NCBI RefSeq assembly: GCF_030124175.1 | Contig: NZ_JASKMT010000002.1 | Coordinates: forward strand, 1 to 64,000 | Source of the DNA: Streptomyces sp. 549 | GTDB taxonomy: Bacteria; Actinomycetota; Actinomycetes; Streptomycetales; Streptomycetaceae | Direction of reading: 5' to 3' | Length of the DNA stretch: 64,000 bases | Shown here: in pieces, positions 36,890 to 48,231 of the stretch | How positions within the stretch are numbered: position 1 is the first letter of the stretch | Layout: each line of letters opens with the position of its first letter | Position numbers and translations under genes: made by a program | The notes under the pieces: model-generated | Database searches by the model: none | What the model saw: only the letters and a program-made list of their open reading frames with translations | Told to the model about the DNA's origin: nothing

Positions 36890-37287
36890 GCGGGCACCCC
36901 CGCAGCGGCGAAGGCGGACCGCGTGAACGGGGCTCCGGGGTAGGTGTACGGGTAGTCGACACCGAGGGTCGCGAGCGCGGCAGCCCGCTGCCGCTCATGG
37001 ACGACGCCGGGCACCACCTGCATGTCCGCGACGGCATGCGGTGTCGCCGCGAGGACGTACGGGCGGACGAGTACCACGTCCTCACCCCGCAGCGGTGCGC
37101 GCAGCGCCCGCACGTGCTCGGGGGTCGGCGTCAGCCACTGAGCGGACGTGGACGTGAGCCCACTGCGGGTGGGGGCGGGATCGGGGCTCGGCGCGGGCTC
37201 GGTGACGGGGCGTGCGCCGTGGCGCCCACGGACGGGCAGCACCATTCGCAGCACCCACACCAGGGCACGGGCGATAACATCGCGCAT
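36886..37287 (-). CDS. Hypothetical protein with N-terminal hydrophobic helix
   Basis: 133 residues: DVIARALVWVLRMVLPVRG may be a membrane or signal-like helix, then a Pro-rich linker, then a conserved-looking LTPTPEHVRALRAPLRGEDVVLVRPYVLAA and a YPYTYPGAPFTR end. AAGGAG precedes ATG 37287. Operon of two with the 67-residue gene. Not recognised. Confidence 0.65.
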   Translation of the reverse strand: MRDVIARALVWVLRMVLPVRGRHGARPVTEPAPSPDPAPTRSGLTSTSAQWLTPTPEHVRALRAPLRGEDVVLVRPYVLAATPHAVADMQVVPGVVHERQRAAALATLGVDYPYTYPGAPFTRSAFAAAGVPA

Positions 37288-37321
37288 AAGTCGTTCAGCT
37301 CCTTGAAAGCTGTTCGGTGGA

Positions 37322-37367
37322 GCCCCGGCGGACCGGTCCTAAGCGGTCCGCCGGGGCGTTTTGTTGT
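37322..37367. terminator. Terminator with 14-bp stem and T tract
   Basis: GCCCCGGCGGACCG (37322-37335) pairs with 37344-37357 over an 8-nt loop and is followed on the + strand by GTTTTGTTGT. On the minus strand it lies between the MazG-like gene and the 133-residue gene, so it can end the MazG transcript; the T tract, however, points to a rightward transcript with no known gene. Confidence 0.8.
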
Positions 37368-37493
37368 GGTACTTCGGAGGGGCAGCGAGGCTCGGCCCGT
37401 CCGCCTCGGGAGCGGACAGCGGAAGCTGGTGTCCGGGCCGGTTTGGCCGATCTGCAAACGGTCATGGCATCCGCGCCGGATGCGGTTCTGGAC

Positions 37494-37811
37494 CTAAGCG
37501 GTGAGGGACCGCTGGGCGACGTGCTCGACGCGCTCGGCGAAGATCCGCGCGGCGTCGGGATTGACCGTGACCAGGGCGACCATGGCGGTCAGAATGACGT
37601 CGACCAGCTCGTTCTGCACGTCCTCCCATGTGTGGCTCTCGCCTTTACGCGGGTTCGAGCGCATCACTCCGTGGACGGCCTCGGCCACCTCCCCGGCTTC
37701 TTCGGTGATCTTCAGGACGCGCAGCAGCCGCGCCTCCATGGGTGAGCCCTGGGTCTCCTCGTCCAGCCAGTCGACGAGGCGCTTGATGGTCATCCAGTCG
37801 GTGTCCTGCAT
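37494..37811 (-). CDS. MazG-like nucleotide pyrophosphohydrolase
   Basis: 105-residue all-alpha protein. LLRVLKITEEAGEVAEAVHG gives the EExxE-like metal site and ELVDVILTAMVAL the second acidic helix of the MazG/dUTPase-like fold, which hydrolyses (d)NTPs to NMP + PPi. ATG 37811 follows GGAGGAA. It lies 164 nt after the methyltransferase on the same strand and may share its transcript. Nucleotide-pool cleaning or a defence role cannot be separated. Confidence 0.82.
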   Translation of the reverse strand: MQDTDWMTIKRLVDWLDEETQGSPMEARLLRVLKITEEAGEVAEAVHGVMRSNPRKGESHTWEDVQNELVDVILTAMVALVTVNPDAARIFAERVEHVAQRSLTA

Positions 37812-37975
37812 GGCCGATTCCTCCGTGGCGGTCGCTGGGCGTGGAGGGGAGGGGACGCTACCGGAGCGGGTAGGCAGGAACCGGGCAAGGCGAGCGGATA
37901 CCTCAGAAGGAGTGACGGCGGGAGGGGAGGGGCGAGCCGGGGGGCGAGAGCCGGGCGCCTTTGCTCGTGCCGGGC

Positions 37976-39115
37976 TCAGCCCTCGCCCAGGGACGCGTGC
38001 CACTTTCCGCGTGACAGGTGCACAACGCCGTCGGGGGTGATGCGGACGTGCGCGCCGTAGAGGGGCAGTGCGCCTTCGGTGTTCAGCCGGTTGCGGATGC
38101 GTTCGAGGGCGTCCCAGAGCCGTTGCGGGCCGCCTTGGTGCACCTCGGGCGGGTCGGTCCACACGGCGGACGCACGCGCCCAGGACCCGTCCGGGTGGAA
38201 CAGCCATGCCGTGCGACGGTCGCCGAGTTCTTCGTAGTGGGTCTCCACTCCCGGGGCGGTCAGGGTGAGGTGCGTACTCACCTCCCAGGCGTCGGAGACG
38301 TTGAGTACGGGGTAGCGGCCGGTGCTGACCTCTTCCCCTTCCTGGTCCCTGGCGTGCGGGAAGCTCTCGATGAGGTGGGGCGGGTGGCCGGAGCCGTGGC
38401 GCGCGTGCATGAACCCGGCCCAGTCGCGTTCGACTCGGCCGACAGCGCCCCCGTCCGGTGTCTTCTCCGCTCCGATGATCATTGTCGTGCCGGTGAGAGT
38501 GGTGACCAGTCGTCCACCAGGCCGCAGAGCACGCAACCACCCTGGGGGAACGCGGGGCATCGCCACCATGGCCACGATCCGGTCGTACCCGCCGGGGAGT
38601 TCCTTCGTGGCGTCCACGGTCACCAGCTCCGGCCGGTACCCGACTGCCGCGAGTCGTTCCCGGGCGGTGTCGGTCAGGTACGGGTCCACGTCCACGCTGC
38701 TCACGTACCGGTCGCCGAAACGGTGACACAACAGCGCCGTGGAGTACCCGGACGCGGTTCCCACGTCGAGAATCCTCATCCCCTCGGCCGGTCGGGCGTG
38801 CCGCAGCATCTGCACCACCAGCGACGGAAGGGTGGACGAAGAAGTGGGCCACCACGCGGGCCGGTTCTCGGGCTCGGCATGGTCGGCGTGGAGTGAGCCC
38901 GTGCGAGTGACCAGGGTGGTGTCGCTGTAGGCCGCGCGCAGCCACAGCTCGGGGTTGGCCGGGCCGTCCGCCAACAGTGCGCCGTCGTGCTCGGCCCACC
39001 ACCAGCGGGGCACGAACAGGTGGCGAGGGGTGAGGCGAACGGCGTCCCGCCATCGGGACTGCGGATGCGTCACCTCGTCTGCCAGGGCGGCTGCGTGCTG
39101 TGCCCATTCCGTCAT
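37976..39115 (-). CDS. PCMT-like SAM-dependent methyltransferase
   Basis: 379 residues. N-terminal half resembles protein-L-isoaspartate O-methyltransferase: RHLFVPRWWW, SSSTLPSLVVQML in place of the usual SQPYIVA, SAM motif I LDVGTASGYSTALL (116-128) and VTVDATKELPGGYDRIV. The ~180-residue C-terminal part (ESFPHARDQEGEEVS onward) is not recognised and may choose the substrate. ATG 39115 overlaps the radical SAM stop by 4 nt, so the two enzymes are made together and may act on the same product. Confidence 0.85.
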   Translation of the reverse strand: MTEWAQHAAALADEVTHPQSRWRDAVRLTPRHLFVPRWWWAEHDGALLADGPANPELWLRAAYSDTTLVTRTGSLHADHAEPENRPAWWPTSSSTLPSLVVQMLRHARPAEGMRILDVGTASGYSTALLCHRFGDRYVSSVDVDPYLTDTARERLAAVGYRPELVTVDATKELPGGYDRIVAMVAMPRVPPGWLRALRPGGRLVTTLTGTTMIIGAEKTPDGGAVGRVERDWAGFMHARHGSGHPPHLIESFPHARDQEGEEVSTGRYPVLNVSDAWEVSTHLTLTAPGVETHYEELGDRRTAWLFHPDGSWARASAVWTDPPEVHQGGPQRLWDALERIRNRLNTEGALPLYGAHVRITPDGVVHLSRGKWHASLGEG

Positions 39116-39996
39116 CGCGCACCGTCCGGGGAGTTGGGGAACTGCGGCAGACACGCCGGTTGTCCAGGCTGGCAGCTCTGGTCGTCCGGGGAACAGCCCT
39201 GAGCGCGTGGTGGGGGAACGCTCGCTGAGAGCCGTGCCCATGCCTTCCCACCGAGCAGTTCGCCGAGTCGGGTTTCGCGTACGTTCCCTGCCGGGAAGTC
39301 GCGGGAGAGCACGCAGCCGGCGAGGTCGCCGTTCGGGAGGACGGCGGCACGTCCACGGGTGCACCGGCCGCACATCTCGTCCAGCGTCGGGGACTGCCCC
39401 GGCAGGGCAGAGCGCCCGACGGCCCGCGCCCGGTCGGTCGTGATGTGCCTGACGCCCATGGATTCCAGCTCGGCGCGGGCTTCGGCCACGTGCTGTCCCG
39501 GCAGGACCTCCACGAGCCCGGCCCGCACGGTCGCGCCCCTGGTGACGGCTTCCCGGATGTGGCACCGGGTCCGGGTGTAGCTGCCCGCACGTCCGGTGAT
39601 CCTGTCGTGTTCCTCGGGCTCGTCGCTGTAGTAGCTCGTCGCCAGCGTCAGGCCCTCACGGGTGAGCAGATCCCACCAGCCGGGGGCGACGTGGAAGAGA
39701 TTGCTGTAGACCTCCACCCCCATCCCGAGCGAGAGCGCGAGTTCAGCGAACTCCCGCCAGTGCGGATGGACGGTTGGCTCTCCCCCGATGAGCTGGACGG
39801 AACAGACGCCGAGCGCCGCCGCGTCGATGATCACCCCTCGCCAGTCCGCAGGCGTCATGGCGCCGTGCGTCGCCTGCGGGCTGGACTCGGACAGGCAGTG
39901 TGTACAGGTGAGTTGGCACCGTCCGGTGATCTCCAGCTCCAGCGACGCGATGCCGATGGGAAAGGCGGCGGAGGGTGGTTCAAGCAGAGTGGTCAC
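39112..39996 (-). CDS. Radical SAM enzyme with SPASM-like C-terminal cysteines
   Basis: 294 residues. CX3CX2C at Cys27, Cys31, Cys34 (GRCQLTCTHC) binds the [4Fe-4S] cluster, and GGEP (71-74) the SAM amine. The C-terminal Cys209-x2-Cys212, Cys228, Cys268, Cys275, Cys282 resemble a SPASM/twitch auxiliary-cluster region, typical of peptide-modifying enzymes. GTG 39996 follows GAAGGGAA. It belongs to a run of six same-strand genes. No obvious precursor peptide is visible beside it, so the substrate may be a protein, a cryptic peptide or a small molecule. Confidence 0.87.
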   Translation of the reverse strand: MTTLLEPPSAAFPIGIASLELEITGRCQLTCTHCLSESSPQATHGAMTPADWRGVIIDAAALGVCSVQLIGGEPTVHPHWREFAELALSLGMGVEVYSNLFHVAPGWWDLLTREGLTLATSYYSDEPEEHDRITGRAGSYTRTRCHIREAVTRGATVRAGLVEVLPGQHVAEARAELESMGVRHITTDRARAVGRSALPGQSPTLDEMCGRCTRGRAAVLPNGDLAGCVLSRDFPAGNVRETRLGELLGGKAWARLSASVPPPRAQGCSPDDQSCQPGQPACLPQFPNSPDGAR

Positions 39997-40015
39997 GGCG
40001 ATTGTTCCCTTCGTC

Positions 40016-40510
40016 CTACGAGCGGTGGTGGTTCCGGGGCCGGTGCGCTTCCTGCGGGGGACGCGGCAGTCCGCCGATGCGGTGGGGTATCGGCTCGGGT
40101 GATGCCCGGTCGGGTTCGTCGGCGGGCAGCAGGGATGGGGAGACGGACAGGGCGTAGGTGCAGTCCGTGTCCGCGAACGTGCGGAACAGTGGATGCCCGG
40201 CCTTGAGATGCTGTCGCGCCTCGCGTTGCCCGTCCCGGTCGGCAGCCCATGTGCGGAGTCGAGTGGGGCAGTCGGGGAAGGGAACGGTCGGCAAGCGCAT
40301 GAACAGCCTCACCCACGTCGAGTGCTGCGGGTCGGGGTCGAGTCGATCCGCGATCCGCAGCGCCGCAGTGCGAAGCCACCGAAGCGCGAGGATTGTTGAG
40401 ATCGATTGGAAGGTGCCCAGGACGTACGGCACGGTCTCGCCCGTGCCGTACACAAGACCGTCGGCGCGCACTTCGCACCGGTAGCCCGCAGGCTGCGAAC
40501 CGTTGCTCAT
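40016..40510 (-). CDS. Hypothetical protein in the radical SAM operon
   Basis: 164 residues: beta-rich start YRCEVRADGLVYGTGETVPYVLGTF, then a helix STILALRWLRTAALRIADRL, and a Pro/Arg/His-rich tail of ~40. No known motif. ATG 40510 overlaps the upstream gene stop by 4 nt; the radical SAM gene follows after 19 nt. Confidence 0.7.
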   Translation of the reverse strand: MSNGSQPAGYRCEVRADGLVYGTGETVPYVLGTFQSISTILALRWLRTAALRIADRLDPDPQHSTWVRLFMRLPTVPFPDCPTRLRTWAADRDGQREARQHLKAGHPLFRTFADTDCTYALSVSPSLLPADEPDRASPEPIPHRIGGLPRPPQEAHRPRNHHRS

Positions 40511-40776
40511 GACGGGCACCCCAGCCACATGACCCACGGGCGTTCGATCACCTCGGCGTAACTGGTGTGCTCGGGGTTGGCTCGCAAGTGCTCGAACGTC
40601 CAGGCCTGAGCGTCGAGCGGGTCGGTGTGCTTGTCGGACTCGGCGCCGCACTCCGTGTCGTCGTCCGTGAGGGACAGGCAGCGGAACCGGTGTGTGAGCG
40701 GGGGAGCGTCGTCGTCCTGGTCGGGCCGGAGAGTCCAGTCGACGAACCGGAACACGCGACGGGCCGCCGTGGTCAC
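40507..40776 (-). CDS. Small hypothetical protein in the radical SAM operon
   Basis: 89 residues: RVFRFVDWTLRPDQDDD, RFRCLSLTDDDTECGAES, then HTDPLDAQAWTFEHLRANPEHTSY and a Trp-rich end. Reads like a small globular Streptomyces family of unknown function. 4-nt overlaps on both sides. Confidence 0.7.
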   Translation of the reverse strand: MTTAARRVFRFVDWTLRPDQDDDAPPLTHRFRCLSLTDDDTECGAESDKHTDPLDAQAWTFEHLRANPEHTSYAEVIERPWVMWLGCPS

Positions 40777-41033
40777 AGCAGTTCACCCCGGCTTCGAGCG
40801 TTGCACCGCGCGTTCTCGGCCTGCAACCTCTCCATCGGGTCCGCAGGACGCACGTGCTCGGGCTCGGCTTCCCACTCCGTCCCACCGCAGACCGGGCGCA
40901 ACGCCCAGTAGGGGCCGGCGACCCCTCGGAACTCCCCGATACGGCCGCCACTGCTGATGTCCAGCACGAGCGTGCCGAGTTGCGGGGGGCCCGGAGGTTC
41001 CTGCGCGTTCGGGCAAACGTTCTCGCCGTCCAC
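40773..41033 (-). CDS. Small hypothetical protein, first gene of the radical SAM operon
   Basis: 86 residues: LGTLVLDISSGGRIGEFRGVAGPYWALRPVCGGTEWEAEPEHVRPAD, a compact beta-rich core. GTG 41033 follows GGAGAGGAG. Codes for the first protein of the operon and lies divergent from the XRE gene across 93 bp. Not recognised. Confidence 0.7.
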   Translation of the reverse strand: MDGENVCPNAQEPPGPPQLGTLVLDISSGGRIGEFRGVAGPYWALRPVCGGTEWEAEPEHVRPADPMERLQAENARCNARSRGELL

Positions 41034-41070
41034 CTGTCGCTCCTCTCCGTAGTCATTCCACTACCAAGGA

Positions 41071-41090
41071 GGCTCAGAGTGGCTTAGAGT
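41071..41090. promoter_or_regulatory. 10-bp direct repeat in the divergent XRE/operon promoter
   Basis: GGCTCAGAGT then GGCTTAGAGT, back to back (one helical turn), in the 93-bp gap between the minus-strand operon and the XRE gene. A candidate operator for the XRE protein. Confidence 0.4.
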
Positions 41091-41126
41091 CGAGCGGTCT
41101 TCAACGTGGCGTAATAGGGGGGCACA

Positions 41127-41966
41127 TTGGTAAACCGCAAAGAGCTGAACCCGGAGGCAAGTCCGCAAGCAGCCTTCGGTGCGCGTCTGCGCAGGCTGCG
41201 CGAGGCGCGCGGGTGGACCCAGGACCACCTTGCAGTTCTGGTCGGCTATACGGGTCGGCACGTGTCGGCGGTGGAAACTGGTCGCAAACCGCCAACCCTT
41301 CCTTTTGTGCGCAAGATTGACGAAGCGTTAGGGACGGGTGGCGGCACCGAATCGTTCGAGCGCGAGTGGCGGGAGGTCAAGCACGGCAGCCTGTTGGAAG
41401 GCTTCCCGGAGTACGTGGGCTATGAGGGCCGGGCAGTCGAGATCAGGCTGTTCGAGATCGGGCTTGTCCCTGGCTTGTTGCAGACACCGGAGTACGCGCG
41501 GGCCTTGGCCGACGGCGATGTACAGCGGGGGGCCATCACACCCGAGCAGGCCGCAGAGCGAGTCTCGTTCTTGGCCGCGCGACAAGAGGCGTTGGTACGG
41601 CCCCGACCGCCCATGGTGCTCGTCGTCATGGATGAGAGCTGCCTCCATCACGCTGTTGGCGGCCCGGAAGTGATGAGCGCCCAGCTTCAGAGACTGGTAG
41701 AGGTGGCCTCCCTCCCCAACTGGATCATCCAGGTGGCACCGTTCGGCATAGGCGCACGAAGGGCGTTCAACCTCCCAGTCAATCTGCTCACCCTTGCCGA
41801 CCGATCCGTCGTTGCGTACGCCGAATCACAGGCACAGGGGCACGTCGAGCGGGAAACTTCCTTCGTGGTGCCCATGCTCACGGCCTACCATCAACTACAG
41901 GGCGAGTCGCTGTCGCAGGCAGCGGCCGTGGCCAAGATCAGCCAGTTGCGAAAGGGCACCCCGTGA
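41127..41966 (+). CDS. Scr1-type XRE regulator with DUF5753
   Basis: 279 residues. Helix-turn-helix about 16-70 (ARLRRLREARGWTQDHLAVLVGYTGRHVSAVETGRKPP), then a DUF5753-type domain (FEIGLVPGLLQTPEYARAL; RQEALVRPRPPMVLVVMDESCLHHAVGG; LPNWIIQVAPFGIG). Start is TTG 41127 after GGGGGG. It overlaps the first DUF397 gene by 4 nt. Such pairs (whiJ-like or Scr1/Scr2-like) are common in Streptomyces, with the DUF397 protein countering the regulator. It probably controls itself and the divergent operon. Confidence 0.92.
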   Translation: MVNRKELNPEASPQAAFGARLRRLREARGWTQDHLAVLVGYTGRHVSAVETGRKPPTLPFVRKIDEALGTGGGTESFEREWREVKHGSLLEGFPEYVGYEGRAVEIRLFEIGLVPGLLQTPEYARALADGDVQRGAITPEQAAERVSFLAARQEALVRPRPPMVLVVMDESCLHHAVGGPEVMSAQLQRLVEVASLPNWIIQVAPFGIGARRAFNLPVNLLTLADRSVVAYAESQAQGHVERETSFVVPMLTAYHQLQGESLSQAAAVAKISQLRKGTP

Positions 41967-42172
41967 CGACCGAATCCCCTCGTTGGTTCAAGTCCTCGTA
42001 CAGCTCGAACGGCGGCAACTGCATCGAGGTCGCCGCCAACTTCGCCGCCTCGCGCGGCACTGTCCCTGTCCGTGACTCCAAGAACCTGGCCGGTCCGGTT
42101 CTGGTCTTCCCTGCTGGCTCGTTCGCTTCCTTCGTGGCGAGCGTCAAGGTTGGAGAATCCGGCACCGTCTGA
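41963..42172 (+). CDS. DUF397 protein, copy 1
   Basis: 69 residues with the family signature WFKSSYSSNGGNCIEVA...VPVRDSKNLAGPVLVF and FVASVKVG. GTG 41963 is coupled to the XRE gene. DUF397 proteins partner DUF5753 XRE regulators in toxin-antitoxin-like or developmental switches. Confidence 0.92.
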   Translation: MTTESPRWFKSSYSSNGGNCIEVAANFAASRGTVPVRDSKNLAGPVLVFPAGSFASFVASVKVGESGTV

Positions 42173-42276
42173 CCAGTCGGCAAGGGCACTGCGTCAGGGC
42201 AGTTCCGCCGTGCTCTGCATGGCACTTTGCTGTGCATGCACCCGGTCGTGATCGAACGATTATGAAAGGGCACCCC

Positions 42277-42486
42277 GTGACGACCGAACCCCCCTGTTGG
42301 GTCAAGTCCTCCTACAGCGAGAACGGCGGCCAGTGCGTCGAGGTCGCCACGAACCTTGCCGTCTCGCGTGGCACTGTCTCCGTCCGTGACTCCAAGGGCC
42401 CGGCCGGTCCGGCACTGGCCTTCCGTGCCGATGCGTTCTCCTCGTTCGTCGCGGGCGTCCAGGTCGGAGACCTCGGCACCGTCTGA
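42277..42486 (+). CDS. DUF397 protein, copy 2 (tandem duplicate)
   Basis: 69 residues, nearly collinear with copy 1: CWVKSSYSENGGQCVEVAT...VSVRDSKGPAGPALAF. The ribosome site and start (gaaagggcaccccgtgacga) repeat those of copy 1, so this is a recent tandem duplication including the initiation region. ATG 42262 is a less likely start. Confidence 0.9.
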   Translation: MTTEPPCWVKSSYSENGGQCVEVATNLAVSRGTVSVRDSKGPAGPALAFRADAFSSFVAGVQVGDLGTV

Positions 42487-42504
42487 CCGGCGATCCAGCG
42501 CTGC

Positions 42505-42554
42505 CCCCACCGTGACGCACGGTGGGGCATGGCGGGACACCCCCGCCATGCCCC
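42505..42554. terminator. Two overlapping hairpins between convergent genes
   Basis: CCCCACCGTG/CACGGTGGGG (42505-42527) and a 13-bp stem GGGGCATGGCGGG with its complement (42524-42554) share 4 nt, so only one can form fully. They lie between DUF397 and the convergent hisS-like gene. Otherwise 42487-42787 shows no gene. Confidence 0.75.
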
Positions 42555-42787
42555 CGTAACGGGAGCGGGTCGCGCGAGGATGTCCGGCCGCTGACCTCGG
42601 AAGGGCTCGCCCCGGCGAGGCTCGGGCAGCCCGTCACCCATGCGGAAGTCGGCTTCTCGGCCTCCGAGAGCGGGACGGAGGCGGCGCCACCCACCACGGT
42701 TGGCGGGATTGCGGAGCGGGGGCATCGTCTATGTCCACTGCGACACCGCGGCCCACTCGTCGAGGTAGAGCAGCGCCGTGATCGTCT

Positions 42788-44125
42788 TCAACTGGATGGT
42801 GCGCACCGCCGGAAGAGGTCTTCGGCGGCCTGATCGAACGGGACCTGTACCTGCTCGCCGCTGTCCATGTCCCGCAGCGTGACCGTACCGGCCTCGCGCT
42901 CGGTTGCGCCGTAGATGACGCAGAATCGGGCCCCCTGCTCGCTGGCCCACTTCATCTGTTTGGCGAACTTGCCGCTTGACCCGAGATAGACGCCGGTACG
43001 CACACCGGCCCGGCGGATTTGGGCTGCCAGCCGGAAGCTGTCGGCGGCCTGCTCCTCTCCCATGACCGTGACGGCTACCTCGATCTGCGCATACGGGGCT
43101 TCCTCGGTCTGGGAAAGCAGGGGCAGGATGCGTTCGATGCCCAGAGAGCCCCCGCAGGCAGGTGCGTCCTTGCCTCCGAGGCGTCCGATAAGGCTGTCGT
43201 ATCGTCCTCCGGATGCGATCGATCCGGGCACGTCGGGAGCGACCACCTCGAAGATGATGCCGGTGTAGTAGTCGAGTCCGCGCACGAGGTTCGGCGTGAA
43301 CCCGATCCGCTCGGACGGGATCGTGTCCTTGGCCAGTTCCAGCAGGTGGTCCACCTCGGCCAGGCCGGCCTGACCGGTTTCGCTGGACTTCAGCCGTGTC
43401 CGGACGCGCTCGACCGCATCGGCTGCCGTGAGATCGTCCACCAGGCCCTGGGCCATCTCCTGTGACAGTCCACGACTGGCTACCAGCTCACTAACAACGG
43501 CTTCCGGAGAGAGCTTGTCGAGCTTGTCGAGCGTGATCAGCGCACCCGAACCCAGCTCGTCGGGAACCTCGTACGCCTCCAGCAGCCCGAACAGGGCGTG
43601 CCGGGAGTTCACCAGGAATCGGAACTCCGGCACACCGAGTGAGTCAAGCGCGTCGTGCAGCGCCAGGACCACCTCGGCGTCTGACAGGGGTGAGGACGAG
43701 CCCACGATGTCCAGGTCGCACTGCACGAATTCGCGGAACCGCCCCTTCCCCGGCCGGTCCGCTCGCCAGACCGGGGCGATGGCGTACCGCTTGTACGGAG
43801 AGGGGAGCTGGCTGCCGTATGCCGCTGCCGCTCGTGCCAGGGGGACGGTGAGGTCGTAGCGCAATGCGAGATCGGCCTCTCCGCTCGCTTCGTGCTCGCC
43901 GCGCCGGAGGATCTTGAAGATCAGCTTGTCCCCTTCGTCGCCGTACTTGCCGGTGAGGACGTCCAGCCGCTCAAAAGCAGGGGTCTGGAGAGGCTGGAAG
44001 CCGTAGCGGGCGAACACGGTCCGAATCGTCGCGAAAGCGTGCTCGCGCCTCTCGTACTCGGCTGCGAGGAAGTCGCGGGTCCCGGATGCGGGGTCGAACT
44101 GCTTCAAGGAGGCCATGAGGGCCAT
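42788..44125 (-). CDS. hisS: Second histidyl-tRNA synthetase
   Basis: 445 residues (442 from ATG 44116). Class II aaRS: FDPASGTRDFLAAEY at the start, motif 2 region YKRYAIAPVWRADRPGKGRFREFVQCDLDIVG, His-A motif LVRGLDYYTG, His-B SIASGGRYDSLIG, motif 3 ACGGSLGIERI, and a C-terminal anticodon-binding domain (EQAADSFRLAAQIRRAGVRTGVYLG). The KYGDEGDKLIFK segment resembles the eukaryote/archaea-like HisRS type, not the bacterial housekeeping type I would expect, so this is likely an acquired paralogue. No Shine-Dalgarno is seen before either ATG. Confidence 0.9.
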   Translation of the reverse strand: MALMASLKQFDPASGTRDFLAAEYERREHAFATIRTVFARYGFQPLQTPAFERLDVLTGKYGDEGDKLIFKILRRGEHEASGEADLALRYDLTVPLARAAAAYGSQLPSPYKRYAIAPVWRADRPGKGRFREFVQCDLDIVGSSSPLSDAEVVLALHDALDSLGVPEFRFLVNSRHALFGLLEAYEVPDELGSGALITLDKLDKLSPEAVVSELVASRGLSQEMAQGLVDDLTAADAVERVRTRLKSSETGQAGLAEVDHLLELAKDTIPSERIGFTPNLVRGLDYYTGIIFEVVAPDVPGSIASGGRYDSLIGRLGGKDAPACGGSLGIERILPLLSQTEEAPYAQIEVAVTVMGEEQAADSFRLAAQIRRAGVRTGVYLGSSGKFAKQMKWASEQGARFCVIYGATEREAGTVTLRDMDSGEQVQVPFDQAAEDLFRRCAPSS

Positions 44126-44385
44126 AGTCCCGAACGCTGGTGGTCGAGAGCAAAACGCTTCGCCGTGGTGTTTCTTCCCGATATCATCCGCCCCCACCTC
44201 CGGAACCACCACGCGCCAACCCTGTATGAGCGCGCACGCGAGACCGTCCGGTCCGAGCTGGTCCCAGCCTGACGGAGGTTCCGTCATACCCCCGGCTCGG
44301 GAGGTATGGCGGGTCCACGAAATCAAGCGGTGTGTGCCCCAGACCTGGCGTCCTGACGTGGCATCACAATGTGCCATCGCCACAG
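44126..44385. other. Leader region upstream of the hisS-like gene
   Basis: About 260 bp before hisS (minus strand) with a dyad atgccatc..., cacaatgtgccat near 44363-44378 and no clear T-box or specifier helix. No ORF stands out. Confidence 0.4.
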
Positions 44386-44423
44386 CAGGGCGGACCCCGA
44401 GGGTCGAACCCTCGTGGGCCCTG
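44386..44423 (-). terminator. Terminator after the XRE gene
   Basis: CGAGGGT-CGA-ACCCTCG (44398-44414) inside CAGGGC/GCCCTG arms (44386-44391, 44418-44423), 3 bp past the XRE stop on the minus strand. The inner sequence resembles a tRNA T-arm but is only a hairpin. Confidence 0.6.
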
Positions 44424-44426
44424 TGC

Positions 44427-44654
44427 TCAGTTCTTGCGGTGACTGAGGAGGTCGCCCGGCTGGCACTCCAGCACCTCGCAGAGGCGGGTCAGGGTGGTGA
44501 AGCGCACGGCTCTCGCCCGGCCGTTCTTGAGGATCGACAGGTTCACATGCGTGACTCCGACCTTGTCGGCCAGCTCGGCCAAGGTCATCCCGCGTTCCTC
44601 CAGCAGTCGGTCGAGGTGGACCTCGATCGCGTGCTCCTGCTTGTCCTCGGACAT
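44427..44654 (-). CDS. Small XRE-family DNA-binding protein
   Basis: 75 residues, nearly all helix-turn-helix: RLLEERGMTLAELADKVGVTHVNLSILKNGRARAVRFTTLTRLCEVLECQPGDLL. ATG 44654 overlaps the DUF2975 stop. This is the usual YozG-like partner of DUF2975 membrane proteins and probably represses its own operon through the dyad at 45304-45344. Confidence 0.9.
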   Translation of the reverse strand: MSEDKQEHAIEVHLDRLLEERGMTLAELADKVGVTHVNLSILKNGRARAVRFTTLTRLCEVLECQPGDLLSHRKN

Positions 44655-45298
44655 CAGACCGTTCCGTCGAGGTCTTCTCGCATGGTGATGCCGACTCGCA
44701 TGATCCGGGCGAAGGAGAGGACACCGAGGCCGGTGAGGATCGCCATGAAGGGAGCGTCCCACGTCCACAGTCCGGAGACAACGCTGATGTCGCCGCCCTG
44801 GCTCAGGGAGTCGATGAGAGCCTTCTCGGCCGTGGCCACGGCAATCGCGGTGAGCACGCTGCCGGCCAGCAGCCACCAGCCCAGCCTGCGCAGCCGCTCT
44901 GCGGTCCGGGCGGTGTAGAGGCCGTCGCGCTCCGCACTTCGGATCAGTTGGAGGACAAGCAGGAGCGCTCCGACGATGAAAACGAAGGGGATGAGCTGGG
45001 TTGTGGTGTTGAGCAGGCTCTGGACCGTACTCGGGTCTTCCGTGCAGTAGTTCGGGTGGGCGCTGAGGTCGACCGTTGCTCCCGGTACGGGCTTGAGACC
45101 CCCAGTCGGTGCCTCGCCGACGCTGACCGTCGTGGCTGTATCCATGACGCAGACCGGCTTGTCGCCGACGCCGAGGACGTGCACGCCGTCCACGAACAGC
45201 GCGGCGAGCAAGCCCACGCCCACCAGCCCCGCGACCAGCGTCACGATGGCCGTGACCGCCGTTGACATCGGCTCCAGCGGATTGCGTACCCTCGCCAT
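44654..45298 (-). CDS. DUF2975 membrane protein
   Basis: 214 residues with four TM helices (about 15-35 VTAIVTLVAGLVGVGLLAALFV; 104-124 LIPFVFIVGALLLVLQLI; 143-160 WWLLAGSVLTAIAVAT; 185-200), an extracytoplasmic Cys-containing loop between 1 and 2, and the RSAERDGLYTARTAERLRRLGW segment common in DUF2975. GGGGG precedes ATG 45298. Operon with the XRE gene. Confidence 0.85.
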   Translation of the reverse strand: MARVRNPLEPMSTAVTAIVTLVAGLVGVGLLAALFVDGVHVLGVGDKPVCVMDTATTVSVGEAPTGGLKPVPGATVDLSAHPNYCTEDPSTVQSLLNTTTQLIPFVFIVGALLLVLQLIRSAERDGLYTARTAERLRRLGWWLLAGSVLTAIAVATAEKALIDSLSQGGDISVVSGLWTWDAPFMAILTGLGVLSFARIMRVGITMREDLDGTV

Positions 45299-45303
45299 GA
45301 TAC

Positions 45304-45344
45304 CCCCGTATCGATTATCGATGTTATCGAAAAACGATACGGGG
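45304..45344. promoter_or_regulatory. Operator dyad of the DUF2975-XRE operon
   Basis: CCCCGTATCG (45304-45313) and CGATACGGGG (45335-45344) form perfect 10-bp arms; the interior carries further ATCGAT/TATCGA half sites. It begins 6 bp before the start codon, ideal for repression by the XRE protein. It is AT-rich compared with its surroundings. Confidence 0.7.
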
Positions 45345-45519
45345 ACTAGTGGGGGTTTGGCAACTGACAGCCAGGCGCGATCGTTGAGCTTTGCGTAGAC
45401 CCCCCCCGTCCGGATTGCCTGCGAAGACCGGCACGACGGAGGCTCGCCGCACCTTCCGGCGTGGGAGGTTCGGCGGGGTGGGAAGTCGTGCCGCTGAGCA
45501 GTCCGTCGCACAGGCCTCC
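45345..45519. other. Non-coding stretch beside the DUF5753 remnant
   Basis: No gene supported. Includes a dyad around ctccgtc/gacggag (45436-45442, 45517-45523). The following 45621-45862 stretch is also empty apart from the promoter of the 91-residue gene. Confidence 0.4.
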
Positions 45520-45620
45520 GTCATGGCGGGGCGCCAAGAGGCGTTGTCGCCACTCACGGCGCTCGTCTTTTTTGGAGGAGAGCTGACTCCCTCACGCTGT
45601 TGGCGGCCCGGAGACGGGAC
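45520..45620 (+). pseudogene. Frameshifted remnant of an XRE/DUF5753 regulator
   Basis: One frame reads SVMAGRQEAL, and a second reads HAVGGPE about 25 codons on; the intact gene at 41127 has SFLAARQEAL and HAVGGPE in one frame at similar spacing. At base level caagaggcgttg, gcgctcgtc and cacgctgttggcggcccggag match 41582-41670. The reading frame is broken between them and no HTH part remains. Confidence 0.7.
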
Positions 45621-45862
45621 TCCAGGGACATCGCGTCCTCTGCCGGGGCCGTGCCCTAGCATCGGGTGGGCCGGTGTCTGTGCTGTCGTTTGTGCTGGCT
45701 GGCAACCAGCGGTCTCCGTCGGCGCCGTAGTCGCAACTCGCTCCTACAAGTCCGGACATTGCCTGAAGGCCGAGGTTTGCTCCACTCGGCCTTCGCCCCC
45801 GAGAAGCACAAGTGCGGCGAGCGAGACTGTCAGAAGAAGTAGCCGCTCAGTAGGGAAAAACG

Positions 45863-46138
45863 TTGACCACGCTCGCGCTCCTTGCCCTGTGGGGCCTCTT
45901 CCTCTCCTTGGCTGTGCTGTCTCTGACCGGACGTCGCCGCAACGGCCTCACGCCTGTGCAACGCTGGATCACCAGTCATCGGTTGTCGTACAGCGTGGCC
46001 GTCGGCTGCCTCGTGGGAGCGGCTGTGGCTGTCGCTGCGGCCAACCCGTGGTTTGCGCTCACCGGCCTCGTCGTGGGGGCTGGAAGCTGGGTTGCGATGC
46101 CGCACGCCGAGGCACGGCTGCGAGGCCGCCACGCCTGA
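45863..46138 (+). CDS. Small two-to-three-helix membrane protein
   Basis: 91 residues: TLALLALWGLFLSLAVLSL, RLSYSVAVGCLVGAAVAVAAA and FALTGLVVGAGSWVAM are hydrophobic helices separated by basic segments. TTG start at 45863 after AGGGAAAA. Function unknown; real by hydrophobic pattern rather than homology. Confidence 0.5.
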   Translation: MTTLALLALWGLFLSLAVLSLTGRRRNGLTPVQRWITSHRLSYSVAVGCLVGAAVAVAAANPWFALTGLVVGAGSWVAMPHAEARLRGRHA

Positions 46139-46302
46139 GGTCCGGGTTTCGACTACGGGGTAGGCGCTGATGCCGGGGGAGGAGGCGGGCACGAAGTGCC
46201 ACCTCTTCCCCCGGCATTCTCGCAAACTGGTCCCGGCATGGCAGGGGCCCCACCGCGCCCCCCCCACTCGGGAGGCACGGCGGGGCCGTTGGCCGCCGTG
46301 GC

Positions 46303-48231
46303 TCAGATCGCCGCCGCTGACGCCGCCGTCGCCCGGCCCGACGGGTCGGGCGGCTCTGGCGCGTGCTCGTCGGACTCGCTGAACTGGGTGCGGTAGAGCT
46401 GCTCGTAGCGTCCGCCTCGGGCCAGCAGCTCCTCGTGCGTGCCGCGTTCGACGATGCGGCCGTGCTCCAGGACGAGGATCTGGTCGGCCTGCCGGATCGT
46501 CGACAGCCGGTGTGCGATGACGACGGACGTGCGCCCGGACAGCGCCTCGGCGAGCGCCTCCTGCACGGCTGCCTCCGAGGTCGAGTCCAGGTGGGCGGTG
46601 GCCTCGTCGAGGATCACCACCCGGGGCTGGGCCAGCAGCAGGCGGGCGATGGTCAGGCGCTGCCGCTCCCCGCCGGACAGCCGGTAGCCGCGCTCCCCGA
46701 CGACGGTGTCCAGTTGGTCGGGCAGTGAGGCGATCAGCTCCTCCAGCCGGGCCCTGCGCAGCGCGTCCCACATCTCCTCCTCCGTCGCCTCCGGCCGGGC
46801 CAGCAGCAGGTTGGCGCGGATGGAGTCGTGGAAGAGGTGCCCGTCCTGGGTGACCATGCCCAGCGTGCGGCGCAGCGTCTCGGCGCTGAGGTCGCGCACG
46901 TCCACGCCGCCCAGCCGTACCGTGCCCCGGTCGGTGTCGTAGAGGCGCGGCGCCAGTTGCGCGATGGTGGACTTGCCCGCTCCTGACGAGCCGACGAGGG
47001 CGACGAGTTGGCCGGGCTCGGCCCGGAAGCTGACGTCGTGCAGCACCTGTTCGCCGCCGCGGGTGTCCAGCGTCGCGACCTCCTCCAGGGAGGCGAGCGA
47101 CACCTTGTCCGCCGACGGGTAGGCGAAGTCCACCGCCTCGAACTCCACGCCCACCGGTCCGTCCGGCACCTCGCGGGCGTCCGGCTTCTCCTGGATCAGC
47201 GGCTTGAGGTCCAGCACCTCGAAGACGCGCTGGAAGCTGACGAGCGCGCTCATCACCTCGACCCGGGCGCTGGCCAGTGAGGTCAGCGGTGCGTACAGCC
47301 GGGTCAGCAGCAGGGCGAGGGAGACGACCGTGCCGGCGTCGAGGCTGCCCCGCAGTGCGAAGAACCCGCCGAGTCCGTAGACCAGCGCCAGGGCGAGCGC
47401 GGAGACCAGGGTCAGGGCCGTCACGAACGTCATTTGCAGCATCGCGGTGCGCACCCCGATGTCACGGACCCGTCCCGCCCGCTGGGCGAACTCCGCCGAC
47501 TCCTGCTCGGGCCGCCCGAACAGCTTGACCAGCGTGGCGCCCGGGGCGGAGAACCGCTCGGTCATCTGCGTGCTCATGGTGGAGTTGTGGTTCGCCGCCT
47601 CCCGCGAGAGCTGCGCGAGCCGGGCGCCCATCCGGCGGGCCGGGAGCACGAAGACCGGCAGCAGGACCAGCGCCAGCAGGGTGATCTGCCAGGACAGCTG
47701 GAGCATCACCGCGAGCGTCAGCAGCAGCGTCACCACGTTGCTGACCAGCCCCGACAGGGTGTCGCTGAAGGCCCGCTGGGCGCCGATCACGTCGTTGTTC
47801 AGGCGGCTGACCAGCGCACCCGTGCGGGTCCTGGTGAAGAACGCCACCGGCATGCGCTGCACGTGGTCGTAGACCGCGGTGCGCAGGTCGAGGATGAGCC
47901 CTTCGCCGATGCGGGCCGACAGCCAGCGCGTCAGCAGCCCGATCGCGGCCTCCGCGACCGCGATGAGCGCGATCAGGACGGCCAGCATCACCACGGTGCG
48001 CTGCGCCGCCCCGTCCACGATGGCGTTGACGACCCGCCCCGCGAGCAGCGGAGTGGCCACCGCGAGCACCGCGGAGACCGTGCTGAACAGCAGGAACAGC
48101 AGCAGCATCCGCCGGTGCGGCTGGGCGAACGCGAAGATGCGCCGCAGCGTGGCCCGGGAGAACGGGCGCTGGTCGTCGGTCGCGTGCCGGGCGTTGTACA
48201 TCGCGTTCCACGCGGTGATTTCCATGGACAT
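46303..48231 (-). CDS. ABC exporter, fused permease and ATPase
   Basis: 642 residues. N-terminal six-helix exporter domain (about 35-320; AFFTRTRTGALVSRLNNDV is the coupling-helix segment), linker, then ATPase domain with Walker A GSSGAGKST, Q-loop VTQDGHLFHDS, signature LSGGERQR, Walker B VVILDEATAHLD and switch His VVIAHRLST. A half transporter of the MsbA/LmrA/multidrug kind, working as a homodimer. ATG 48231 follows GGAGG. Substrate unknown; gene stands alone. Confidence 0.93.
   Translation of the reverse strand: MSMEITAWNAMYNARHATDDQRPFSRATLRRIFAFAQPHRRMLLLFLLFSTVSAVLAVATPLLAGRVVNAIVDGAAQRTVVMLAVLIALIAVAEAAIGLLTRWLSARIGEGLILDLRTAVYDHVQRMPVAFFTRTRTGALVSRLNNDVIGAQRAFSDTLSGLVSNVVTLLLTLAVMLQLSWQITLLALVLLPVFVLPARRMGARLAQLSREAANHNSTMSTQMTERFSAPGATLVKLFGRPEQESAEFAQRAGRVRDIGVRTAMLQMTFVTALTLVSALALALVYGLGGFFALRGSLDAGTVVSLALLLTRLYAPLTSLASARVEVMSALVSFQRVFEVLDLKPLIQEKPDAREVPDGPVGVEFEAVDFAYPSADKVSLASLEEVATLDTRGGEQVLHDVSFRAEPGQLVALVGSSGAGKSTIAQLAPRLYDTDRGTVRLGGVDVRDLSAETLRRTLGMVTQDGHLFHDSIRANLLLARPEATEEEMWDALRRARLEELIASLPDQLDTVVGERGYRLSGGERQRLTIARLLLAQPRVVILDEATAHLDSTSEAAVQEALAEALSGRTSVVIAHRLSTIRQADQILVLEHGRIVERGTHEELLARGGRYEQLYRTQFSESDEHAPEPPDPSGRATAASAAAI

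Follow-up and report, generated by a model that had tools for sequence, protein, structure and literature searches.

The 64-kb window analysed here, a stretch of Streptomyces DNA, carries on its minus strand a second gene for histidyl-tRNA synthetase (HisRS; 42788..44116). The gene belongs to a lineage separate from the canonical HisS of the same genomes, is under purifying selection, and in its relatives forms one half of a two-gene module on mobile elements, of which the window has lost the other half. Our preferred reading, put forward tentatively, is that this is a horizontally spread spare HisRS of foreign bacterial lineage, which would charge the host's tRNA-His when the housekeeping HisS is blocked.

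The window encodes a complete HisRS

A sequence-only reading of the window had placed a full-length HisRS at 42788-44125. A HisRS gene does occupy this interval, but it lies on the minus strand, inside an ORF of 42788..44383, rather than on the plus strand. The encoded protein matches the HisRS profile TIGR00442 with 364.5 bits against a cut-off of 286.75, over profile positions 3-405 of 406, and has both the Pfam catalytic domain (PF13393) and the anticodon domain (PF03129), which bears out the claim that it is full-length. HisZ, the regulatory subunit of ATP-PRT, was considered and rejected: the HisZ models stay under their cut-off (185.4 versus 271.65 bits) and the anticodon domain is present.

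The proposed start at 44125 fares less well than the body of the gene. The ATG of a MAS(L/M)KQF motif is common to nine close HisRS copies, which were themselves found via the MASLKQF motif, and it corresponds to 44116, giving a protein of 442 aa. The ATG at 44125 (445 aa) is in frame in no sequence but the window and one relative, L091, and it overlaps a conserved promoter-like block. On these alignments the likely start is 44116, not 44125. The block itself (44124..44153, minus strand), seen in an alignment of ten upstream regions, consists of TTGCTC, 18 nt and GACTAT, and lies 7 nt ahead of the ATG. About 40 bp ahead of the HisRS start are conserved in all ten regions, with small variations (GTTTTGC...TTCCGG...CTATG), and we infer that the block is perhaps a promoter giving a leaderless mRNA. 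In a separate blastn comparison of ten rows, similarity to the window starts 40-64 bp upstream of 44116 in eight; in L094 it starts at 44120 and in L095 only within the gene. Two of these rows, L090 and L004, are the same genome.

Purifying selection on the extra HisRS is shown by codon comparisons, in which dN/dS between the window and nine relatives is 0.07-0.12; the gene is intact in all ten Streptomyces-type copies compared.

The extra HisRS is of a bacterial lineage foreign to Streptomyces

The host genome (G000; 6.0 Mb, 99.89% complete) has a canonical hisS at G000:C45:126107-127309 (436.9 bits). The window gene is thus not the sole HisRS of its genome, and had rightly been called extra. 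The best local identity between the two is 38%, over residues 277-437. Copies of the extra lineage occur in 7 of 392 Streptomyces genomes, the window's own counted, and canonical hisS is present in all seven; the copy in one carrier, G202, is truncated and more distant.

We placed the gene in a maximum-likelihood tree of 74 rows, all bacterial, with no eukaryotic or archaeal row; identical sequences, loci L025-L083 save every fifth and five chosen ones, and the truncated copies L089 and L095 were omitted. The window HisRS and nine Streptomyces-type copies form a clade of 10 rows (100/100), nested in a clade of 25 actinomycete copies (100/100), which is joined in turn by copies from further families of this phylum to make 44 rows (100/99). 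The canonical HisS copies found in the same genomes stand apart as a clade of 12 rows (100/100), in agreement with the suggestion that the window gene is not a standard actinobacterial HisS. Copies from Bacteroidota and Myxococcota branch further out, and the deep placement of L081, L078, L035, L024 and L146 is unsure because long branches meet there.

The highest-scoring solved structure is 6nhi (288.5 bits), presumably the enzyme of a Bacteroidota species, followed by 3net (223), the human enzyme (about 212), 1wu7 (156), which we take to be archaeal, and the E. coli-type enzyme (about 127). Given that 6nhi comes ahead of the human enzyme and 1wu7, and that the tree, within its bacterial rows, places the gene beside bacterial lineages, the description of this HisRS as non-bacterial is not supported. 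Likewise, the N-terminal KYGDEGDKLIFK stretch is present as described, but the label eukaryote/archaeal-like overstated its meaning. Judged by tree and structure matches, the extra HisRS is foreign to Streptomyces yet of bacterial lineage.

Elsewhere this lineage is not always an addition. In seven of the eight genomes tested from other families of the phylum it is the only full HisRS match, the eighth, G574, having a partial match in addition, and it can thus apparently serve as a housekeeping enzyme. Nine genomes were tested from the part of the 25-row clade that lies outside the Streptomyces-type group: five also carry a canonical copy, the MAGs G779 and G780 have no other HisRS match, the one other match in G781 is partial, and in G782 there are four HisRS matches, none in the canonical set. 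From this it follows that the lineage is extra in Streptomyces and in some others, not everywhere. In the other families of the phylum, and further out in Myxococcota and Bacteroidota, HisRS of the same lineage is apparently the housekeeping enzyme, whereas here it is extra, sporadic and mobile.

The surroundings of some other copies deserve mention in their own right. A single genome, that of Nocardiopsis metallicus (L188, L189), has four HisRS-model matches. Two of these are separated by about 2 kb and lie next to genes that, read by eye, resemble those of a kinase and a polyprenyl synthase; the extra Nocardiopsis copies were compared by BLAST only. For the sister copies L017, L018 and L020, the neighbour is a PP-loop gene with weak likeness to Asn synthase, a kinase gene with weak likeness to APH, or a NUDIX gene together with one for a lanthipeptide dehydratase.

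Close relatives form a two-gene module on mobile DNA

Comparison of the loci indicates that in close relatives the gene is part of a compact two-gene module, made up of about 40 bp of promoter-like DNA, HisRS and a predicted helical protein of 203 aa. The ORF for this partner is conserved directly downstream of HisRS in four Streptomyces (L004-L007) and is found also in G044, G030, G184, the phage contig L152 and Actinomadura xylanilytica (L021). Across eight aligned copies, identity to L004 is 84-94% among Streptomyces and 63% for L021, and the C-terminus, HCDxCKKTITALLYLD, is nearly invariant. The partner occurs in 5 of 295 Streptomyces genomes, and these are exactly the five other genomes with close HisRS; a direct search of 19 HisRS-carrier genomes gave a partner match in six, complete in four. 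Within Streptomyces, then, the partner is found only where HisRS occurs, while elsewhere HisRS occurs without it. The two genes have similar dS, and in each of them pairwise dN/dS is 0.07-0.15.

The AlphaFold2 model of the partner is all-helical (pLDDT 83.7). No Pfam match was obtained for L004 or any of the eight members, and no PHROG match; the single PADLOC hit (E 0.054) is no evidence of a family, the best match to PDB sequences has E 0.097, and the best Foldseek match (E 0.16) is not significant. A second structural comparison returned generic helical bundles (best Z 12.4 over 123 residues), with designed proteins in all top ten rows, and is uninformative on function. Plasmid and phage records gave no match to the partner. 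Nor did 396 genomes drawn from the phylum, a result of little weight since none of them is known to hold an intact partner.

The settings of the module point to mobile elements of more than one kind. In L004 it lies about 2 kb from AICE genes (RepSA, FtsK-like, DUF2637 and GntR), and L006 has relatives of these AICE genes together with integrase-like ORFs, the latter read by eye. In G030, terminase, portal and capsid genes are followed by the module, with neck, major tail, tape measure and minor tail genes about 14 kb beyond on the same contig, which places the module between the blocks of head genes and tail genes in a prophage; in another phage contig, L152/L207, it occupies the same place. 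A search for mobile copies in plasmid and phage records brought up only HisRS relatives under 60% identity (28 plasmid records, 9 phage records). No gene besides HisRS and its partner is constant across the module contexts compared by ORF clustering and reading, and the module has no constant neighbour of biosynthetic or resistance type.

The surroundings of the window gene are likewise variable, which supports its earlier description as lying in an accessory context. Part of that description holds for other copies too: generic XRE and DUF397 genes recur in 7 and 5 of 20 loci, but the radical SAM gene is shared with none of the other copies. In the window, an XRE/DUF5753 regulator gene and two DUF397-type genes (41127..42486, plus strand) are generic and outside the module; on the upstream side, a gene for a DUF2975 protein and, directly behind it, one for a Cro/C1-type HTH protein (44427..45298, minus strand) lie outside both the module and the homologous block. 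At about 70-77% DNA identity, the XRE/DUF397 genes of the window recur in L005, on the opposite side of HisRS, and L007 has a DUF397 stretch in common with the window. A small window ORF has a counterpart in L005 alone, and one of methyltransferase type has counterparts in L008 and L020. The nearest relatives of the flanks reach at best 60% identity (a flanking protein), too distant for an empty-site comparison. Separately, 37976-39996 on the minus strand holds a radical SAM/SPASM gene and, behind it, a PCMT-like methyltransferase gene near an ATP-grasp peptide maturase type, under the model cut-off.

The window has lost the partner gene

Immediately behind the HisRS stop, blastn and tblastn reveal a partner remnant (42712..42787, minus strand) that had escaped the earlier reading. 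It holds the last codons, ITALLYLDE, to about 42756, with the stop changed, and then the DNA that follows the partner in L004. By blastn, window 42788-44178 aligns with L004 11329-9940 and window 42712-42789 with L004 12029-11952; therefore about 620 bp, most of the partner, are deleted in the window. The 78 bp piece behind the missing partner matches L004, L005, L006 and L090.

A broken partner in a carrier with intact HisRS is seen four times: in the window, where it is deleted; in G069, where it lies in two frames; in L009, where it lies in several; and in G777, the genome of L008, where only a C-terminal remnant is left, on another contig than HisRS. The reverse, HisRS broken and partner intact, was not seen in this sample, which was partly found through HisRS and so favours intact HisRS; the break in G069 could be a sequencing error. 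The G777 remnant (L187, G777:C277:2665-2784) is a lone, well-preserved piece of 40 C-terminal residues.

A single tRNA-His in each carrier tested

The window has no tRNA genes, and none of 22 loci scanned has a tRNA-His, with other tRNA genes in seven of the 22. At the level of whole genomes, a tRNA-His pattern gave one match in 13 of 14, including all seven carriers tested (a set that did not include L005-L007); two matches were found in G012, which is without the extra HisRS. The one match in each of these seven carriers speaks against a private tRNA-His, and a functional extra HisRS must therefore charge the ordinary tRNA. We also considered a tRNA-like or T-box leader, as a hairpin near 44400 looked tRNA-like, and rejected it: Rfam finds no family at gathering scores in 37000-46500.

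What the extra HisRS may do

If the gene is a spare synthetase, it would arrive with its own promoter-like DNA and load the host's single tRNA-His when an inhibitor or toxin blocks the housekeeping HisS. The 203-aa partner would then assist in that task, and its loss would leave the window with a HisRS-only derivative. The sequence-only reading had likewise proposed resistance to synthetase inhibitors, the role that we too tentatively favour. This presupposes that the extra enzyme charges that tRNA and is insensitive to the block, and that a natural HisRS-directed agent exists. We know of no HisRS-directed natural product. The available portions of PMC9437257 and PMC7916415 likewise name no natural HisRS inhibitor.

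The precedent for such a role lies in other synthetases. According to the available portions of PMC9437257, divergent second copies of SerRS, IleRS and TrpRS are resistance genes (albomycin SerRS2, mupirocin IleRS2, indolmycin TrpRS) that accompany known natural inhibitors; as these cases illustrate, a divergent spare synthetase is of use when the ordinary one is blocked. The extra HisRS resembles them in being a divergent second copy beside an intact housekeeping one, acquired by transfer. It differs in that no cognate antibiotic or antibiotic cluster has been identified here, and in belonging to a two-gene module with a partner of no known family. As far as the accessible part of its table goes, PMC9437257 lists no duplicated, aminoacylating HisRS, and the accessible parts of PMC9437257, PMC7916415 and PMC5313534 contain no second HisRS that accompanies a natural inhibitor. 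The histidine decarboxylase island of Lactobacillus parabuchneri is comparable to the extent that, in the part of PMC5313534 available, a hisS on transferred DNA is additional to a second, chromosomal hisS. That hisS is in a histidine decarboxylase cluster with a T-box leader, whereas here neither was found, nine neighbours having been scanned for the decarboxylase. No paper on a mobile HisRS in Streptomyces was among the matches listed in a search of openly licensed literature, a result that depends on the search phrases. Against a spare synthetase it can be said that a simple resistance gene leaves the linked partner unexplained, and that for some members of the 25-row clade the copy is not an addition.

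The main rival explanation, which we think unlikely, is that the two genes are a poison-antidote pair: the partner would act against canonical HisRS, tRNA-His or the decoding of histidine, and the carrier would be rescued by the foreign-type HisRS as an insensitive replacement. Toxin-antitoxin modules are small linked two-gene units on mobile elements. The present module resembles them in this, lying near AICE genes and within a prophage, and also in that one of its genes is broken more often; the exact coincidence of the partner with close HisRS among the Streptomyces genomes, and the asymmetry by which the partner is broken in four cases and HisRS in none of these, further favour the comparison. 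On the other hand, the candidate antidote is a complete enzyme, and the candidate toxin matches no toxin family, its only hit being that of PADLOC noted above. Retention of HisRS after loss of the partner could equally mean that the partner is dispensable, and the asymmetry rests on four cases, which are few and carry the sampling bias, the doubt over G069 and the separate contig of G777 described above. In its most specific form, a mobile element of a new type in which a helical protein disables the host HisRS or its tRNA, the foreign-type HisRS replaces it, and the window has lost the poison and kept the antidote, this explanation seems to us distinctly unlikely. A mobile HisRS linked to one conserved gene is a lead, pointing either to some natural agent that acts on HisRS or to a poison-antidote element of a new kind.

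We regard as improbable that HisRS and its partner make a histidine-containing product, with HisRS supplying His-tRNA or His-AMP to the partner. Some related HisRS genes do lie next to genes resembling an ATP-pyrophosphatase (L017, L018) or a kinase (L017, L020), both Pfam matches under cut-off, and in L020 next to one for a lanthipeptide dehydratase. Proteins like aminoacyl-tRNA synthetases are also known from such pathways, according to the accessible text of PMC9437257. Set against this, only HisRS and the partner are constant in the module contexts, and there is no extra tRNA-His in the seven carriers. An all-helical protein, as the partner is predicted to be, is unlike the known aminoacyl-tRNA-dependent transferases, and its model has no significant Foldseek match. 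The specialised tRNA-dependent chemistry suggested by the sequence-only reading is thus less likely, because the co-travelling partner is predicted to be all-helical and is lost while HisRS stays.

Finally, we give little credence to a neutral or decaying passenger, an acquired HisRS without special role in this strain: the deleted partner and the truncated G202 copy would suit it, but the ten Streptomyces-type copies compared are all intact with dN/dS of about 0.1 and a conserved promoter-like block ahead of the gene, with the proviso that the partner loss may be too recent to judge the window copy.

A second mobile synthetase and a possible prophage cargo site

Our preferred reading of the extra HisRS as a spare synthetase is supported by the occurrence in Streptomyces of a second mobile synthetase, a non-discriminating AspRS. 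The AspRS gene at L195:12464-13861 scores 379.8 with the non-discriminating model against a cut-off of 368.4, and we take it to be archaeal-type. Its relatives (L224-L236) are present in 16 of 199 Streptomyces genomes, two of which have two copies. When six AspRS loci were compared with up to 6 kb of flank per side, a block of about 1.6 kb was alike in all 15 pairings: the block alone in eleven, likeness extending further in three, and two further weak matches between L232 and L235. No constant partner was seen in the AspRS loci compared. CutA was considered as one and rejected, being present in L195 and absent in all eight other loci (each about 4.3 kb). With AspRS as well as HisRS mobile in this genus, spare synthetases may make up a broader class of mobile cargo.

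In capsid loci related to the prophage locus, the same two small genes follow the capsid gene in 31 of 31, and HisRS comes next in one of these; neck or connector genes are seen in four, within the covered and often short stretch. Downstream of the capsid, others carry a C5 methylase with GIY-YIG and Vsr genes, an N4/N6 DNA methylase, QueC or the non-discriminating AspRS. From this pattern we infer that the region behind the prophage head genes is a cargo site. Across the prophage family L193-L223 the variable region behind the capsid holds restriction-modification-type genes, DNA methylase, QueC, a weak DGQHR/DpdB-like match, an FxLD lanthipeptide and synthetase genes, and it is possibly a site for defence genes as well as for cargo.
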